Below the pieces are notes generated by a model. The model saw nothing but the letters and a program-made list of their open reading frames with translations, did no database searches and had not been told where the DNA came from. Below are positions 16,267-29,244 of a stretch of DNA of 30,532 nt, piece by piece (position 1 is the stretch's first letter; every line of letters starts with the position of its first letter). Source of the stretch: a virus; the IMG/VR virus record IMGVR_UViG_3300025120_000320, positions 1 to 30,532 of that record; one strand, 5' to 3'. Position numbers and translations under genes: made by a program.

Positions 16267-18555
16267 ATGGCAGAAGTATTATTATCCCCTGGTGTATTAG
16301 CAAGAGAAACAGATTCATCATTTATCTCTGGACAACCAGTACAAGCAGGAGCAGCTATATTAGGACCTACAGTTAAAGGACCAGTAGGAATACCAACAAT
16401 AGTTTCTTCTTATTCAGATTATCAAAATAGATTTGGTGCTAAAGTAGAAAGTGGTAGTGCAGAATACACTTATTTTACTTCTATATCAGCATACAATTAT
16501 TTCCAACAAGGAGGAGATTCATTATTAGTAACTAGAATAGTTAGTGGTTCGTATACTTCAGCAACTAGTACAGCTATTCAAAATGATGTAGAAAGTGGAG
16601 ATATTGCAGACGCAACTAACTTATTTAGTTCTTATACTTCAGGTGGTACTGGAGGTGATGCTGCTGTTTACGCTAATATAGCTACAAGTGGAGGAACAGG
16701 TTCAGGATTAAAAGTAACAGCTACAAAATCAAGTGGCAGTGGAAAATTATTATCTACAGCAGATGCTTTATTAGCTAGTATTACAACACAACCAACAAAT
16801 GGTTCTATTGCTTCTCATCCAAGTGTTGCTTTAACAGGCAGTTTAAGTGGTACTGGAGCAGTTGCAACAGTAGTATTAGATGCTGTTGATAATGTTTCTA
16901 GTATTACTGTAACTACTACAGGTTCTGGATTTGTAACAGGAGAAACAATAACATTCCCATCAGCCTCTGTAGGTGCTTCAGTAGGTGGAGGAGTTGATCC
17001 TATTTTCACATTAGTAGCAGGTGATTTCTTTGTAGAAACTACTGCATTAGTAGCAACTGGTTCACATGCAGGATATGCTGTAGGTGATGTTATTACAGTA
17101 GCTAATGGTGTTTTAGGAGGTGGAACTGATTTAACGTTTACTTTAGTTGATGGTGACATAGTAGACCAAACAGCTTTCGTATTAGAAACATTAAGTGAAG
17201 GTGCTATTATGAATAGCTCAGGAGCTACGGGTTCAAATGGAACATTAGTAAATGGTACTAAGGATAATATAAGATGGCAAATAGTTTCCCCAAACACTGC
17301 TTCTGGTACATTTAATTTATTAATTAGAAGAGGTAATGATACTACTACTTCTAGAACAGTATTAGAAACTTGGACAAATTTATCTTTAGATCCAAATTCT
17401 AATAATTATATTGAAAAAGTAATAGGTAACTCAAAACAAGTAGTTACTCAAGATCCTTCATCTAATGAATACTATATTGCTGATCAAGGTTCATTTAACA
17501 CATTAAGTAATTTTGTAAGAGTAAAATCTGTAGCATCTAAAACATTAAACTATTTTGATAATGATGGAAGTGCTAAATCTGAATACACAGCATCTATTCC
17601 TGTAGCAGGACAAGGTGAATTTTCAGGAGCTTTAGGTACAGCATTTAATCCAAAAGTAGCTAATTTTTATGAAAATATTAACTCTTCAAATACTCAAGGA
17701 TTAGTAGCAGATAATTATACAATTTCTTTACAATTATTAGCTAATAGAGATGCATTTAGATATAATTTAATTACAGCACCGGGCTTATATGATAAAGATT
17801 ATGCAGCACCTATCAGTACAATGATAAACAATTCTTCATTTAGAGGAGATAATATAGCAGTTATTGATGGTGTACCTTATGGAACAGGTATTAATAATGT
17901 AATTTCTCAAGCAGCAGGAAGAGATACTTCATATGCAGCTACATATTGGCCATGGGTTCAAACAATTGATCCAGATTTAGGATCATTAGTTTGGGTACCA
18001 GCTTCAACAATGATGCCAGGTGTATATGCTTTTAATGATAGAGCAGGAGAAGCATGGTTTGCACCAGCTGGATTAAACAGAGGTGGATTAGGAACTGTAG
18101 TTAGAGCAGAAAGAAAATTAACTAATGGTAATAGAGATTCTCTATATCAAGATAATGTTAATCCAATAGCAACATTCCCAAACACAGGAGTAGTAGTATT
18201 TGGGCAAAAAACATTACAGAAAAAAGCAAGTGCTTTAGATAGAGTAAATGTTAGAAGATTACTAATTGCTCTTAAAAATTATATTTCACAAATAGCAGAC
18301 AATTTAGTATTTGAGGCAAATACAATAGCTACAAGAAATAATTTTTTAGCACAAGTTAATCCATATTTAGAAAGTGTACAACAAAGACAAGGATTATATG
18401 CTTTTAAAGTAGTAATGGATGAAAGTAATAATACACCAGATGTAATAGACAGAAATCAATTAATTGGACAAATATATTTACAACCAACTAAAACAGCTGA
18501 ATTTATATACCTAGATTTCAACATATTACCAACAGGAGCTACTTTCCCGGTATAA
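16267..18555 (+). CDS. 18: Tail sheath protein, T4 gp18-like
   Basis: 762 residues. The protein forms the contractile sheath around the tail tube. The N-terminus is typical (LLSPGVLARETDSS, AAILGPTVKGPVGIP, YNYFQQGGDSLLVTRIVSGS), and the C-terminal domain carries the classic sheath end: ERKLTNGNRDSLYQDNVNPI, VFGQKTLQKKASALDRVNVR, RLLIALKNYI, YLESVQQRQGLYAFKVVMDE and a final strand IYLDFNILPTGATF that links neighbouring subunits. It is longer than T4 gp18 (659 residues). The extra length appears to lie in a Gly/Ser/Thr-rich insert at about residues 100-310, containing two similar beta units: ITVTTTGSGFVTGETITF near 213-230, and HAGYAVGDVITV (267-278) followed by DLTFTLVDGDI near 288-298. It is a single-gene unit with its own promoter box. 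Confidence 0.95.
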   Translation: MAEVLLSPGVLARETDSSFISGQPVQAGAAILGPTVKGPVGIPTIVSSYSDYQNRFGAKVESGSAEYTYFTSISAYNYFQQGGDSLLVTRIVSGSYTSATSTAIQNDVESGDIADATNLFSSYTSGGTGGDAAVYANIATSGGTGSGLKVTATKSSGSGKLLSTADALLASITTQPTNGSIASHPSVALTGSLSGTGAVATVVLDAVDNVSSITVTTTGSGFVTGETITFPSASVGASVGGGVDPIFTLVAGDFFVETTALVATGSHAGYAVGDVITVANGVLGGGTDLTFTLVDGDIVDQTAFVLETLSEGAIMNSSGATGSNGTLVNGTKDNIRWQIVSPNTASGTFNLLIRRGNDTTTSRTVLETWTNLSLDPNSNNYIEKVIGNSKQVVTQDPSSNEYYIADQGSFNTLSNFVRVKSVASKTLNYFDNDGSAKSEYTASIPVAGQGEFSGALGTAFNPKVANFYENINSSNTQGLVADNYTISLQLLANRDAFRYNLITAPGLYDKDYAAPISTMINNSSFRGDNIAVIDGVPYGTGINNVISQAAGRDTSYAATYWPWVQTIDPDLGSLVWVPASTMMPGVYAFNDRAGEAWFAPAGLNRGGLGTVVRAERKLTNGNRDSLYQDNVNPIATFPNTGVVVFGQKTLQKKASALDRVNVRRLLIALKNYISQIADNLVFEANTIATRNNFLAQVNPYLESVQQRQGLYAFKVVMDESNNTPDVIDRNQLIGQIYLQPTKTAEFIYLDFNILPTGATFPV

Positions 18556-18601: not shown

Positions 18602-19090
18602 ATGGCAGTATTAGATCCCAATGAAATATTTTACACAGCGTTTGAACCCAAACAAGCGAATAGGTTTGTCCTATACATGGATGGGATGCCTAGCTACCTA
18701 ATAAAGCAAGTTAGTGCTGTAACATTACAACAAGGTGTAGTAACATTAAATCACATTAATGTAGAAAGAAAAGTTAAAGGTAAATCAATGTGGCAAAATG
18801 TTACAATGACATTATTTGATCCAATTACTCCTTCAGGTGCTCAAGCAACTATGGAATGGGTAAGATTACATCACGAATCTGTAACAGGTAGAGATGGTTA
18901 TTCTGATTTTTATAAGAAAGATTTAACTATTAATGTTTTAGGACCAGTAGGTGATATTGTTTCAGAATGGATTTTAAAAGGTGCCTTTATTGTAAACACT
19001 AACTTTGGAGAGTATAACTGGGATACAGCAGATACAGCAATTAATATTTCAATTGAAGTAGCAATTGATTACGCAGTATTAAATTTCTAA
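18602..19090 (+). CDS. 19: Tail tube protein, T4 gp19-like
   Basis: 162 residues, almost the same length as T4 gp19 (163). The protein stacks as hexameric rings to form the inner tail tube through which DNA passes. Recognisable features are the N-terminal ANRFVLYMDGMPSYLIKQVS strand pair, the central NHINVERKVKGKSMWQNVTM, LFDPITPSGAQATMEWVR with HHESVTGRDGYSDFYKKDLT, and the C-terminal LKGAFIVNTNFGEYNWDTAD followed by TAINISIEVAIDYAVLNF. These match the tube-protein pattern in which a conserved loop precedes the last two strands. It follows the sheath gene as in T4, with its own promoter box before it and a very strong terminator after it. Confidence 0.95.
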   Translation: MAVLDPNEIFYTAFEPKQANRFVLYMDGMPSYLIKQVSAVTLQQGVVTLNHINVERKVKGKSMWQNVTMTLFDPITPSGAQATMEWVRLHHESVTGRDGYSDFYKKDLTINVLGPVGDIVSEWILKGAFIVNTNFGEYNWDTADTAINISIEVAIDYAVLNF

Positions 19091-19190: not shown

Positions 19191-19937
19191 ATGAGCGAAT
19201 TAAAATTCCCTACTGAAGAAGTAGCCTTACCCTCAAAAGGATTAGTATATCCTAAAGACAACCCACTATCAAGCGGAAAAGTAGAAATGAAATATATGAC
19301 TGCTAAAGAAGAAGATATCCTTACTAACCAAAATTATATTAAACAAGGAGTTGTAATAGATAAATTATTAAAATCTTTATTAGTTGATAAAAATGTAAAC
19401 TATGATGATATGATTGTAGGTGATAAAAATGCAGTATTAATTTCTTCTCGTATTTTAGGTTATGGTAAAGATTATGATTTTATGTATAAAGGAGAAGTTG
19501 TAACTGTAGATTTAACAGAATTAGAAACTAGATTCTTGGATGAAACTACTATGATAAACGGGTCCAATGAATTTGCTTTTACTTTACCTCATACTAATAC
19601 ATCTATTACTTATAAAATCTTAACTAATAGAGATGAGAAAAAAATAGAATCAGAAATTAAAGGCCTTAAAAAATTAAACAAACAATCAGACCCACAAATG
19701 TCTACTAGATTAAAATATATGGTTACATCTGTAAATGGAGATACCGATAATAAAATAATTAGAGATTTTATAGATACTTATATGTTAGCTAGAGATTCTA
19801 GAGCATTAAGAAGTCATTTAAAGGAGACTCAACCTGATATTATTATGAGTTTTGATTTTGTTGGAGAAAATGGTACTGAGGAGGATGCTGTCATTCCTAT
19901 GACAGCCGGGTTTTTTTGGCCTGAATCCGGAATATAG
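19191..19937 (+). CDS. 26: Baseplate hub / tail assembly protein, T4 gp26-like
   Basis: 248 residues matching the T4 gp26 family. Typical features are PSKGLVYP (residues 14-21), NPLSSGKVEMKYMTAKEEDI (25-44), GVVIDKLLKSLLVD, GDKNAVLISSRILGYGKDYD (77-96) and a C-terminus ending in FFWPESGI. In T4, gp26 takes part in baseplate hub assembly. Here the gene sits between the tail tube and the tape measure, exactly where other tailed phages encode a tail assembly chaperone with a frameshifted long form. The last codons are GGG TTT TTT TGG; an overlapping frame downstream encodes a gp51-like domain with no good start, so a minority of ribosomes probably shift here to make a fusion of about 341 residues. 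The 248-aa form ends normally at TAG (19935-19937). Confidence 0.82.
   Translation: MSELKFPTEEVALPSKGLVYPKDNPLSSGKVEMKYMTAKEEDILTNQNYIKQGVVIDKLLKSLLVDKNVNYDDMIVGDKNAVLISSRILGYGKDYDFMYKGEVVTVDLTELETRFLDETTMINGSNEFAFTLPHTNTSITYKILTNRDEKKIESEIKGLKKLNKQSDPQMSTRLKYMVTSVNGDTDNKIIRDFIDTYMLARDSRALRSHLKETQPDIIMSFDFVGENGTEEDAVIPMTAGFFWPESGI
19908..19919 (+). other. Candidate programmed ribosomal frameshift site (GGGTTTTTTTGG)
   Basis: In the gp26 frame this reads GGG TTT TTT TGG. A +1 slip of the tRNA on the second TTT (19914-19916 to 19915-19917) keeps perfect TTT pairing, and the next codon becomes GGC, leading into the gp51-like frame, which is open from 19903 to its stop at 20215-20217. A -2 shift would reach the same frame. 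A -1 shift would meet TGA after two codons. The alternative explanation is one extra T in a homopolymer from sequencing or assembly. Confidence 0.55.
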
Positions 19938-19968
19938 ACTTTCGGTATTTAAAATTATACATAGTATA

Positions 19969-20217
19969 GTGTACCATGGGAATGGTGGGTATGATTATTT
20001 CACTGTTTACAATATGCCTATTTGGTTAAGAAACTTTACAGTTAAAGAAATACAAGAACAAAACCAAAGAGAAACTAAACACATTAAAGATTCTCAAAAA
20101 TCAAATAAGAATTCAACATCAACAAATATAGGTGATCCTGTGCCTGATCATGTAAAGCAAATATTTAATCAAAATAAAAAATCTTCAAGCTATATTACTC
20201 AAAGAGCTAAAAAATAA
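19969..20217 (+). CDS. 51: gp51-like baseplate/tail assembly domain, probably made as a gp26 fusion
   Basis: The coordinates give the GTG-initiated form (82 residues), but that start is weak: no Shine-Dalgarno site, a rare start codon, and the recognisable homology begins upstream. The same frame is open from 19903, just after a TGA at 19900-19902, and has no ATG until 20014, inside the conserved segment. Read from the frameshift point it begins GLNPEYRLSVFKIIHSIVYH and continues GNGGYDYFTVYNMPIWLRNF. The 'G-x-G-G/W ... YNMPIWLRxF' pattern is what I associate with gp51-type hub assembly proteins of T4-like phages. After it comes a polar, Lys/Gln/Asn-rich tail that is probably disordered. Its most likely product is the C-terminal 99 residues of a gp26-gp51 fusion of about 341 residues, acting in tail or hub assembly before the tape measure is wrapped. 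Confidence 0.6.
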   Translation: MYHGNGGYDYFTVYNMPIWLRNFTVKEIQEQNQRETKHIKDSQKSNKNSTSTNIGDPVPDHVKQIFNQNKKSSSYITQRAKK

Positions 20218-20251: not shown

Positions 20252-22588
20252 ATGGCAAGTGAATCAGCTAAAAGTGCTAGAGAAATAGCAGAAGAAGTAG
20301 TAAAAATAAGGGAGGAAATGAGTGAGGTAGTATTTGCCTCCCGTGATTTTGCTAATGAAGCTGCTAAAGCTGCTAAAGCTTATTTTGAAAATAACATTCA
20401 AGTAGCAGAAACTAGAAAAGCTTTTAAAGACATTGCTAAGACAATACAAGAAACTTCTATGATGGTTGAAGATATAATCACAGGTCAAAAAGATATATCT
20501 GAAATAGCTAAAAACCAAGTTAAATACGAACAAAATAAGAAAAAATTAGCTTCAGAATTAAAACAAGCTTTAGGAGGTATTAAACTTGATGAAAAGCAAA
20601 TAGAGGAATTTAAAAAAGGAACACTTGATTTAGATACTGCTTTATTAATGCAAGCCCCCAAAATTGGAAAAGAACAAGAACTATTATTAAAACTATACCT
20701 AGAACAATTTAAAGCTTTACAACTCCAGGATAAGGAAATGGAAGAGATGGGTAGAAGAGCTGAAAATATTGAAGGTGGAATGGGTAGATTTGGTAGAGGA
20801 ATAAAAGGTTTAGGAGGAGTACTTAAAAAAGTTGGGCTTGATGGTTTAGGTAAATCAATGGGTCTAGATAAAGCTGTTAAAGAAGGAAGAGAATTATCTG
20901 CTGCATTAACCAAGGGAGGAGATTCTGCATCTAAAATAGGTACCAAGTTAAAAGTTGCAGGTAAAATGGCGGGTTCTATAATAGGGAGCTTAGATAAAGC
21001 TTTTGGACCCTTAGCTATTTTTATGAAGATATTTTCAGTAATGAAAGATATTGATAAATCAGCTGGTGAATTTGCTAAAAATCAAGGAATATCTTACAAG
21101 GAATCAATTAAACTTAGAGGAGAAATGTCTAAAGTAGCTCAGGCCTCAGACAATATTTTAGTTAGTTCTAAAGGTTTAATGGAAACTCAGGGAAGACTAA
21201 ATGATTTAATGGGTTCTAATGTAAGATTTAGTGATGAGTTAGCTTCTGATATGACTTTAATAGCTAAAACAACAAATATGAGTGCTGAAACTCAGGGAGT
21301 ACTTGCATTTGAATCTATGAAATCTGGTAAATCAGCTAAGGATTTATTAAAAACCCAAAAATTAACAGTTTTACAACAAAATAAAGCTAGAGGTTTAACA
21401 ATGAGCACAAAGAAGATTCAAGATGCAATAGGTAAATCTTCTAAAGCACTACAACTAACCTTTAAGGGTAGTACTAAAGAATTAACTAACCAGGTAATGG
21501 CTGCTAAGGCCTTAGGTACAAATCTATCAGGGGTAGAAAAAATATCATCATCTTTATTAGATTTTGAAAGTTCAATACAAGCAGAACTTGAAGCTGAATT
21601 ATTACTTGGGAAAGATATTAATTTAGAAAAAGCAAGAGCAGCAGCATTAGAAGGAGATATGGCTACAGTAGCAGATGAAGTTATGAAAAACAAAGCTATA
21701 ATGAATGCCTTTGATACTAAAAACGTTATTGCACAAGAAGCAGCAGCTAAAGCTTTAGGAATGAGTAGAGGAGAGTTAGCTGATATGGTTCAAGGACAAA
21801 AAGAACTTAAAGTAGTAAGAGACGAAGGATTTAAAAGTATAGATGATGCCCAAGAAAAATACAATGCTATGATAGATAGCGGTATGAGTAAAGAAGAAGC
21901 AGCATCTAAAATAAAAGATAAAGATTTACTTACCCAATTAGAATCAGCATCTATAGCTGATAGGCTTGCTGCTACTATGGAAAGAGTTTCAGAAGTTTTT
22001 ATAGAAATGTCAACCCCAGTGTTAGCATTTGTAGATGGTTTAATGAAAAGTGAAGGGATAGCTGATAAAATAGCAAATACTATTAAAGGTATAGCAGCTG
22101 CTTATTTACTTATAAAGGGTCTACAAGTAGCTATGAATATTTTAAGTATGGTTAATATAGCTCGTCAATCTACTTTATTAGGTATTGAGGTTGCAAAGGC
22201 AGGAGCTGCAACTACTTTTAATGCTATGAGTACTTTTGGATTAGGTACTGTAATTGCTGTAGCTGCAGTTGCAGCTGCAATGGGAGCTGTAGGTATGTAC
22301 TTTATGAATGATGGTATGATTGGATCTGATGGAGGTATGGTAGTATCAGGACCTAAAGGATCTATTCAATTAAATAAAGATGATGAAATTATAGCAGGAA
22401 CTGATTTAATGGGTGGTAAAGACAAACCAGAAAGAGGAGGAGGAGCAAGAAGAGATGCTGCTTTAATAGCAGAAATTCAAAATTTAGCAACAATAAACCG
22501 ACAAATATTAGCTAAGTCAACAACTATAGAAATGAATGGAAGTCAAGTAGGACAAGAAATTAATACATCTGAACGATCAGTCCAATAA
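20252..22588 (+). CDS. Probable tail tape measure protein
   Basis: 778 residues, mostly helical. The N-terminal 170 residues are charged coiled coil (AREIAEEVVKIREEMSEVVF and following). A Gly-rich stretch follows (about 174-200, GGMGRFGRGIKGLGGVLKKV), then a long helical body. Two hydrophobic segments suited to membrane insertion lie at about 611-636 and 661-685 (FGLGTVIAVAAVAAAMGAVG). After these comes a MVVSGPKGSIQLNKDDEIIA motif near 696-715, which I associate with the C-termini of tape measure proteins. Position directly after tube and chaperone genes agrees. Tape measures set tail length at roughly 0.15 nm per residue, which would give a tail near 115-120 nm; that is a rule-of-thumb inference. 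T4 gp29 is shorter (590 residues), and direct similarity to it was not visible. Confidence 0.8.
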   Translation: MASESAKSAREIAEEVVKIREEMSEVVFASRDFANEAAKAAKAYFENNIQVAETRKAFKDIAKTIQETSMMVEDIITGQKDISEIAKNQVKYEQNKKKLASELKQALGGIKLDEKQIEEFKKGTLDLDTALLMQAPKIGKEQELLLKLYLEQFKALQLQDKEMEEMGRRAENIEGGMGRFGRGIKGLGGVLKKVGLDGLGKSMGLDKAVKEGRELSAALTKGGDSASKIGTKLKVAGKMAGSIIGSLDKAFGPLAIFMKIFSVMKDIDKSAGEFAKNQGISYKESIKLRGEMSKVAQASDNILVSSKGLMETQGRLNDLMGSNVRFSDELASDMTLIAKTTNMSAETQGVLAFESMKSGKSAKDLLKTQKLTVLQQNKARGLTMSTKKIQDAIGKSSKALQLTFKGSTKELTNQVMAAKALGTNLSGVEKISSSLLDFESSIQAELEAELLLGKDINLEKARAAALEGDMATVADEVMKNKAIMNAFDTKNVIAQEAAAKALGMSRGELADMVQGQKELKVVRDEGFKSIDDAQEKYNAMIDSGMSKEEAASKIKDKDLLTQLESASIADRLAATMERVSEVFIEMSTPVLAFVDGLMKSEGIADKIANTIKGIAAAYLLIKGLQVAMNILSMVNIARQSTLLGIEVAKAGAATTFNAMSTFGLGTVIAVAAVAAAMGAVGMYFMNDGMIGSDGGMVVSGPKGSIQLNKDDEIIAGTDLMGGKDKPERGGGARRDAALIAEIQNLATINRQILAKSTTIEMNGSQVGQEINTSERSVQ

Positions 22589-28473: not shown

Positions 28474-29244
28474 ATGCCCATAAACACATCAAAATATTTA
28501 ATAGGAGCTAAAATACAGGCAAGTCCAGGCCCTTCATCCCCAGTAGGTACTTATTCTCCACCACCACAAGGAAGTGGAAGTCCTATAACACCTGAAGAAT
28601 TAGCTCAAGCAAAACTTAGGGTAAAAATTACAAGATTATTAGATGATGGTCTTCAAACTTTGGGACAAATGGAAATTTTAGCTGAGGATGAAAAAACAGT
28701 TTTAACTACACTTGCTACTTGTGAATTGCCTTATAGAGGTAACAGAAATTCTGTTAGTTCTATCCCACCAGGAAAAAATTTAGTTAGGAGTTTTAAAAGT
28801 GATCATTATGGAAAATCTTTTTGGGTATATTCTAATGAAGCAGGAGGATGGCAAAAAAACTCAGTAGCAGGAGGAGGTTATAATAGACAAGCTATTTTAA
28901 TTCATAGAGCTCCAACTTCTTCTTGGTTAATGGGTTGTATTGGGCCTGGAAATAGTTTTAGTAATATAAGATCTGGCCCTCAAAAAATAAATAAAGTAAA
29001 ATACCATTCCGAACATTTATCAGGAGCAAAAAAAGGAAACCCTTATGGAACATTTCCAACAGGTCGAGAAGGACTTGATAGGATGGCTGAATTATTATGG
29101 AGTAGTGCTGATGTTACAACAACTTCTTTTTATATGACAATAGATAATAAACCAGGAGGATTACTTACTGGAGAAGGTAATAAATCAAAACTAATTGATG
29201 CTAAAGGTAATTCAATATTTATAGATGCGGCAAAATCTCCTTAA
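28474..29244 (+). CDS. DUF5675-type domain protein in the baseplate operon
   Basis: 256 residues. Residues about 48-160 match the pattern I know for DUF5675: a starting strand (KLRVKITRLLDDGLQTLGQM), a Cys-x-ELPYRGN motif (83-90), SSIPPGKNLVRSF (95-107), YGKSFWV, then ILIHRAPTSSWLMGCIGPGN (141-160) with His144 and Cys155. The His...Gly-Cys arrangement recalls cysteine-dependent L,D-transpeptidase-like enzymes, so a peptidoglycan-directed activity is possible but unproven. A Pro/Ser/Gly-rich N-terminus (about 17-40) may be a flexible linker. After residue 165 the sequence is not assignable to the family (KVKYHSEHLSGAKKGN, then EGLDRMAELLWSSADV). The ATG lies 5 nt after the hub-like gene with no Shine-Dalgarno site. 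Position makes it a candidate tail-tip wall enzyme; an endolysin-type or structural role is the alternative. Confidence 0.65.
   Translation: MPINTSKYLIGAKIQASPGPSSPVGTYSPPPQGSGSPITPEELAQAKLRVKITRLLDDGLQTLGQMEILAEDEKTVLTTLATCELPYRGNRNSVSSIPPGKNLVRSFKSDHYGKSFWVYSNEAGGWQKNSVAGGGYNRQAILIHRAPTSSWLMGCIGPGNSFSNIRSGPQKINKVKYHSEHLSGAKKGNPYGTFPTGREGLDRMAELLWSSADVTTTSFYMTIDNKPGGLLTGEGNKSKLIDAKGNSIFIDAAKSP

Follow-up and report, generated by a model that had tools for sequence, protein, structure and literature searches.

Frameshifted tail assembly chaperones of the lambda gpG/gpGT type were reportedly described by Xu, Hendrix and Duda in 2004, and in this role +1 shifts are rarer than −1 shifts. A 2016 review of these chaperones reports wide conservation of the G-T frameshift among long-tailed phages, "except T4", and describes a lambda model in which the long form connects the tape measure with the tube (PMC5009743). 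In phage T4, the proteins gp26 and gp51 are counted among the hub assembly chaperones, and their place in the hub has been a matter of dispute (PMC3004832). The PDB holds chains for T4 gp25, gp27 and gp29 and none for gp26 or gp51, as would be expected of assembly factors, although the support that this lends to such a role is only indirect. No paper was found that reports a frameshift, an origin by duplication or paralogy for gp26 and gp51 (most subscription papers lay outside the search), nor was any found that places the T4 hub chaperone family (phrog_150) in the lambda G/GT scheme.

Here we analyse a locus of this family in a 30.5-kb virus record, referred to at its full length as the window, in which head, sheath, tube and baseplate-type genes all lie on the + strand. 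The features that matter for what follows are these:

16267..18555, + strand: tail sheath gene (phrog_23, E 1.5e-63)
18602..19090, + strand: tail tube protein gene, the upstream neighbour (phrog_4542, E 8.9e-19; Phage_T4_gp19, 5e-6)
19191..19937, + strand: gp26-like gene, encoding the unshifted (short) product of 248 aa (open reading frame; phrog_150; profile match; AF2 model)
19903..20217, + strand: +1 open frame with a conserved C-terminal (T-like) domain (stop at 20215-20217)
19911..19925, + strand: putative slip site TTT TTT TGG CCT GAA (0 frame), a conserved 15-nt island in 186 distinct relatives
19191..20217, + strand: predicted frameshifted (long) product of 341 aa, equivalent of T4 gp51
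20252..22588, + strand: gene for a 778-aa protein in the tape-measure position, the downstream neighbour (synteny with phage immuto)

Profile searches gave no convincing family match for the 778-aa protein, but the gene syntenic to it in the Flavobacterium phage immuto is annotated as a tape measure. The gene pair thus occupies the position between the tail tube gene and the tape measure that is characteristic of the lambda G/GT type. The likeness to lambda extends to a short product and a predicted rarer long product with a shared N-terminus, to a conserved slip site shortly before the first frame ends, and to a 0-frame stop close by. The window differs from lambda in that its inferred shift is +1 rather than −1, in that no stimulator was seen in it, and in that its family is phrog_150. 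In the direction and location of the shift it resembles the halovirus HSTV-2, a myovirus whose tail chaperone locus probably shifts +1 as well (PMC5009743). Elsewhere in the window, at 28474-29244 in the baseplate region, a match to DUF5675 falls slightly below the cut-off (E 5.6e-6).

A reading of the window made from its sequence alone had described a gp26-like frame overlapped by a gp51-like frame open from 19903, poorly supplied with start codons and joined to the first as a continuous product of about 341 residues; direct reading gave the same picture. The 0-frame ORF (19191-19937) ends ...GCC GGG TTT TTT TGG CCT GAA TCC GGA ATA TAG, the TAG stop lying at 19935-19937. The downstream frame, +1 relative to the gp26-like ORF, is open from 19903 to its stop at 20215-20217; its first ATG is at 20014, preceded only by a GTG at 19969, and skipping one base within the T run yields a single protein of 341 residues. 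In the +1 frame, the conserved domain starts with the slip site itself (FFGLNPEYR...) and extends to the stop. The motif TTTYTTTGG is found in a single copy in the window, which is the slip site. The sole other T7 run (1432-1438) lies between two ORFs past the major head protein and is perhaps part of a terminator.

We consider it highly likely that a programmed +1 ribosomal frameshift at this site yields a short and a long tail-assembly chaperone, a conclusion drawn from sequence comparison, since the shifting itself was not measured. Ribosomes would translate the gp26-like gene, and most would terminate at the nearby TAG, a few codons beyond the slip, releasing the 248-aa chaperone. A fraction would slip +1, the Phe-tRNA on UUU re-pairing one base downstream in UUU_YUU_UGG, and would produce the 341-aa protein with its added C-terminal domain. 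The lambda model is the best guide to what follows: by analogy with gpG and gpGT, the shared part may coat the tape measure and the extra domain may recruit the tube subunit, so that the 248-aa and 341-aa proteins would together serve this T4-type phage as its pair of tail-assembly chaperones. T-even phages would obtain the same two products from a pair of paralogues, gene 26 encoding the short one and gene 51, in one frame, the long one. Ribosome shifting, its direction, the exact slip codon and the chaperone role are all inferred.

What is observed directly, beyond the arrangement itself and the homology, copy-number rule and tree set out below, is the conservation of both the frame offset and the slip sequence. 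Scans of IMG/VR returned hundreds of relatives, among which the offset was counted in 156 sequences carrying both halves and the motif in 186 distinct sequences. The +1 offset was observed in 155 of the 156; the exception (L105) is only apparent, because a separate single-base indel in mid-gene precedes the usual motif and +1 step. The first slip codon is TTT in all 186 sequences, the second TTT in 159 and CTT in 27, the third TGG in 179 (TTC in 5, TAC in 2) and the fourth CCT in 184, with the 0-frame stop 5-8 codons past the slip; two contigs (L001 and L002) have a T7 run identical to that of the window. By comparison, Phe elsewhere in the same genes is encoded by TTT in 82% of cases, and TTTYTTTGGCC has one further occurrence in 1.08 Mb of the same loci. 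Conservation of the +1-frame protein sets in at the slip site and, in the fused alignment, is unbroken across the junction. The sequence-only reading had proposed a programmed frameshift joining gp26 and gp51 homologues in the chaperone position, and had looked to relatives for a conserved T run, a fixed offset and protein conservation across the junction; all of these are present, and together with the absence of an independent start and the location between tube and tape-measure genes they support the proposal comparatively. It would have been refuted by a plain fused gene, or by relatives in which gp51 has a good start of its own and the slip run is not conserved, and neither was encountered in the window clade.

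Homopolymers are error-prone, and just such an overlap would result if the T run of an ordinary fused gene had been missequenced or misassembled. The same offset nevertheless recurs in 186 distinct sequences, drawn from many metagenomes, as well as in the isolate genomes of immuto, Mel-JY01 and RM378, and the CTT variants interrupt the homopolymer, so that an indel error cannot account for the pattern; the explanation by error is therefore refuted for practical purposes, and the +1 overlap of the gp26-like and gp51-like frames is confirmed as real, neither error nor chance. The +1 frame might also be a small independent gene, with ribosomes reinitiating past the gp26-like stop or starting there at a codon other than ATG, much as databases annotate the second part as a gene of its own in the relatives S-ShM2 and DLP6 ("baseplate hub assembly catalyst"). 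Within the cyanophage clade, an ATG indeed stands three codons past the slip in 61 of 81 loci, and reinitiation could therefore add to the shift there. We regard a separate gene as very improbable for the window clade, however, where the first +1-frame ATG lies mostly 32-36 codons inside the conserved domain, where no ATG precedes the conserved part in that frame in 148 of 186 sequences (and no ATG, GTG or TTG in 89 of 186), and where conservation reaches as far as the slip. At the nucleotide level, moreover, the slip codons are fixed, and T4 gp51 is itself the fused form.

The direction of the proposed shift is informed by more distant relatives. A hidden +1 frame is also present in the phages immuto (Flavobacterium), Mel-JY01 (Microcystis), RM378 (Rhodothermus), GXN1 (Streptococcus) and LIS04 (Listeria) and in the uncultured LR756508, with no frameshift annotation in the database records examined; RM378, LIS04 and GXN1 are single-copy. 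The slip site of RM378 is T7GG, as in the window, and those of the others include TTT TTT AGT (LIS04), TTT CTA TTC (LR756508) and TTC TTT CGT (GXN1). A +1 slip of the Phe-tRNA from UUU to UUY fits all of the +1 cases, as far as can be inferred from pairing. The sequence-only reading had left the choice between +1 and −2 undecided. Its departure from the −1 direction holds, but a −2 shift, with one extra residue at the junction, now appears rather unlikely, as does transcriptional slippage on the T run. A T7 run does permit full re-pairing for −2 as for +1 and could slip in RNA polymerase, and a −2 shift is known in phage Mu (PMC5009743); yet good re-pairing in GXN1 and LR756508 is achieved by a +1 slip from UUU to UUC and by no −2 slip, from which we infer that +1 is favoured, and the TTTCTTT variants (27 of 186), with no T run longer than 3, disfavour polymerase slippage.

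A +1 shift on Phe codons also has a counterpart outside phages: the UUU_CGU frameshift of influenza A segment 3 is said to have been reported by Firth et al. in 2012. There too, Phe-tRNA reportedly slips +1, moving from UUU to UUC, on the same two codons as in GXN1, in an unrelated virus and with an unrelated function, whereas the window motif is UUU_YUU_UGG. The window clade also differs from the prfB (RF2) type, as its A-site codon is a sense codon and 177 of 186 sequences lack an SD-like 4-mer in the 25 nt that precede the slip. Nor was a stimulatory stem-loop detected downstream, where the mean z was −0.2 to −1.2 over several stretches, with an upstream control equally low, and where no consensus fold and no conserved structure were found. 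A search of genome contigs returned five loci only, all on phage-like contigs binned in MAGs, mostly of Bacteroidota; these relatives of the window gene (L170-L174) come from Flavobacteriales, Winogradskyella and Sphingobacteriales bins, pointing to Bacteroidota as hosts. In a 595-kb phage (LR756511, L166), the junction is apparently −1 (GGT TTT TTC) and the protein groups with the +1 clade.

Fifteen other single-copy T4-type phages, each with a single PF12322 gene, have the C-domain encoded in the −1 frame, in most cases at T_TTT_TTC or T_TTT_TTT (P-SSM2, Syn9, S-PM2, HTVC008M, Cr30, phiM12, phiW-14, Vi01, DLP6, Vibrio D493, Aeh1, R11Z, VAP7, AF3 and S-ShM2). Among cyanophage-type loci from IMG/VR, one or other of these heptamers is present in 81 of 82, and the C-domain, found in 80 of 82, is in the −1 frame in all 80. 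Directly upstream of the two Phe codons stands a codon with T as its last base in all 77 distinct cyanophage-type sequences; for the same residues elsewhere, the codon ends in T only 31-87% of the time. The canonical −1 heptamer X_XXY_YYZ fits the cyanophage-type relatives, and not the +1 window clade. The slip sites of three of the −1 phages depart from the canonical heptamer: GAA ATT TTC in Vi01 (L267), TCA CTT TTC in Vibrio D493 (L366) and CAC GTT TTT CGC in VAP7 (L369). In the cyanophages (L261-L263 and L283-L362), the ATG past the −1 slip stands beside the 0-frame stop, and a free-standing gp51 C-domain made by reinitiation, on top of the shift, is possible.

Homology between the window proteins and those of T4 was observed through profiles. 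The gp26-like protein matches phrog_150 (baseplate hub) with E 4.4e-8 and, in profile-profile comparison, the T4_baseplate clade (prob 98, E 1.7e-13). A direct Pfam search gave no match between PF12322 and the window protein even at E 1; as the gathering score is not reached, we treat the protein as a homologue and not as belonging to the Pfam model itself; the relatives RM378, LIS04 and GXN1 do reach the score. Since an hhalign comparison of the fused alignment with the single T4 gp26 or gp51 sequence returned nothing, the homology of window to T4 rests on intermediates, without which the two are too distant. The +1 domain had no match in phrog_634, but it aligned with the −1 domains of T4-type phages (profile prob 86.5, E 4.5e-6; 43 in another run), the similarity centring on NMPIWLR/NMMPWERE. 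Searches of Pfam and PHROG with this domain alone gave spanin, DUF6760 and MRP-L51 as chance-level matches only.

For structure prediction, the two halves were folded separately. The AF2 model of the gp26-like protein (pLDDT 90) had T4-type hub assembly proteins as its BFVD matches. Among 588 PDB chains compared by VIA-align, the best were YqbN (3klu, Z 5.9), a tail chaperone of the XkdN type from a B. subtilis prophage, and, from HK97, the tail assembly chaperone (2ob9, Z 5.3); the next-ranked chains scored 4.2 and then 2.4, all Z values were under 8 and hence weak, and Foldseek gave E 3.3 for 2ob9. The predicted resemblance to known chaperones is thus modest and only suggestive, and a fold search with the C-domain gave no useful match.

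T4 itself differs from the window in having two separate genes, 26 and 51, on opposite strands and with no frameshift. Their products share a homologous N-terminal domain (BLASTP E 2e-6), PF12322 matching gp26 over its whole length and gp51 over residues 1-201, and an extra C-terminal domain, phrog_634, is found in gp51 alone; gp51 therefore represents the long version and gp26 the short one. In the alignment, T4 gp26 ends ...VIRGLKEFFELL where the frameshifting phages show ...VVLEGLQSFF and the slip, its "...GLKEFFELL" end falling at the slip position, past which gp51 reads on into the extra domain. The correspondence of gp26 and gp51 to a chaperone pair, as proposed from the sequence, accordingly stands in a refined form: T4 gp51 is equivalent to the whole fusion product rather than to its second half, and gp26 to the unshifted product, so that T4 carries the pair as two genes.

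Two copies without a shift were observed in T4, RB43, Aeromonas phage 31, KARL-1 and Campylobacter phage CP220, one copy being long in a single frame and the other short. The rule that a single copy goes with a shift and two copies with none has no exception in 20 T4-type phages. In a tree of the shared domain, from which CP220 was left out and in which long branches make fine placement unsure, gp26 and gp51 of the T-even type group together (96/87), beside the frameshifting Aeh1 and R11Z, also Straboviridae (91/87), and inside the −1 group. From this nesting, the gene that was duplicated most likely belonged to an ancestor with a −1 frameshift, as far as sequence relationships can tell.

We therefore think it likely that T4 is no exception to the G/GT rule, and that gp26 and gp51 are duplicated short and long chaperones in which duplication has replaced recoding, inside Straboviridae and apparently again in Campylobacter phages, the source gene being one that shifts by −1 in the majority of T4-type phages and by +1 in the window's Bacteroidota clade. 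Gene duplication would then explain the frameshift missing from T4: every single-copy T4-type phage examined carries the frameshift signature, and the T-even lineage has two genes instead. T4 gp26 and gp51 would thereby gain a concrete, testable role, duplication and recoding would be exchangeable ways to two forms of one protein, and many cyanophage genes that now bear the name "baseplate hub assembly catalyst" would need to be reannotated. In CP220 (L389, L390), the short copy and the long in-frame copy lie about 8 kb apart, and here too a duplication has probably taken the place of the shift. In RB43 (L373), gp51 and gp26 stand in tandem on one strand, as against the divergent pair of T4, an arrangement that may be nearer to the original duplication.
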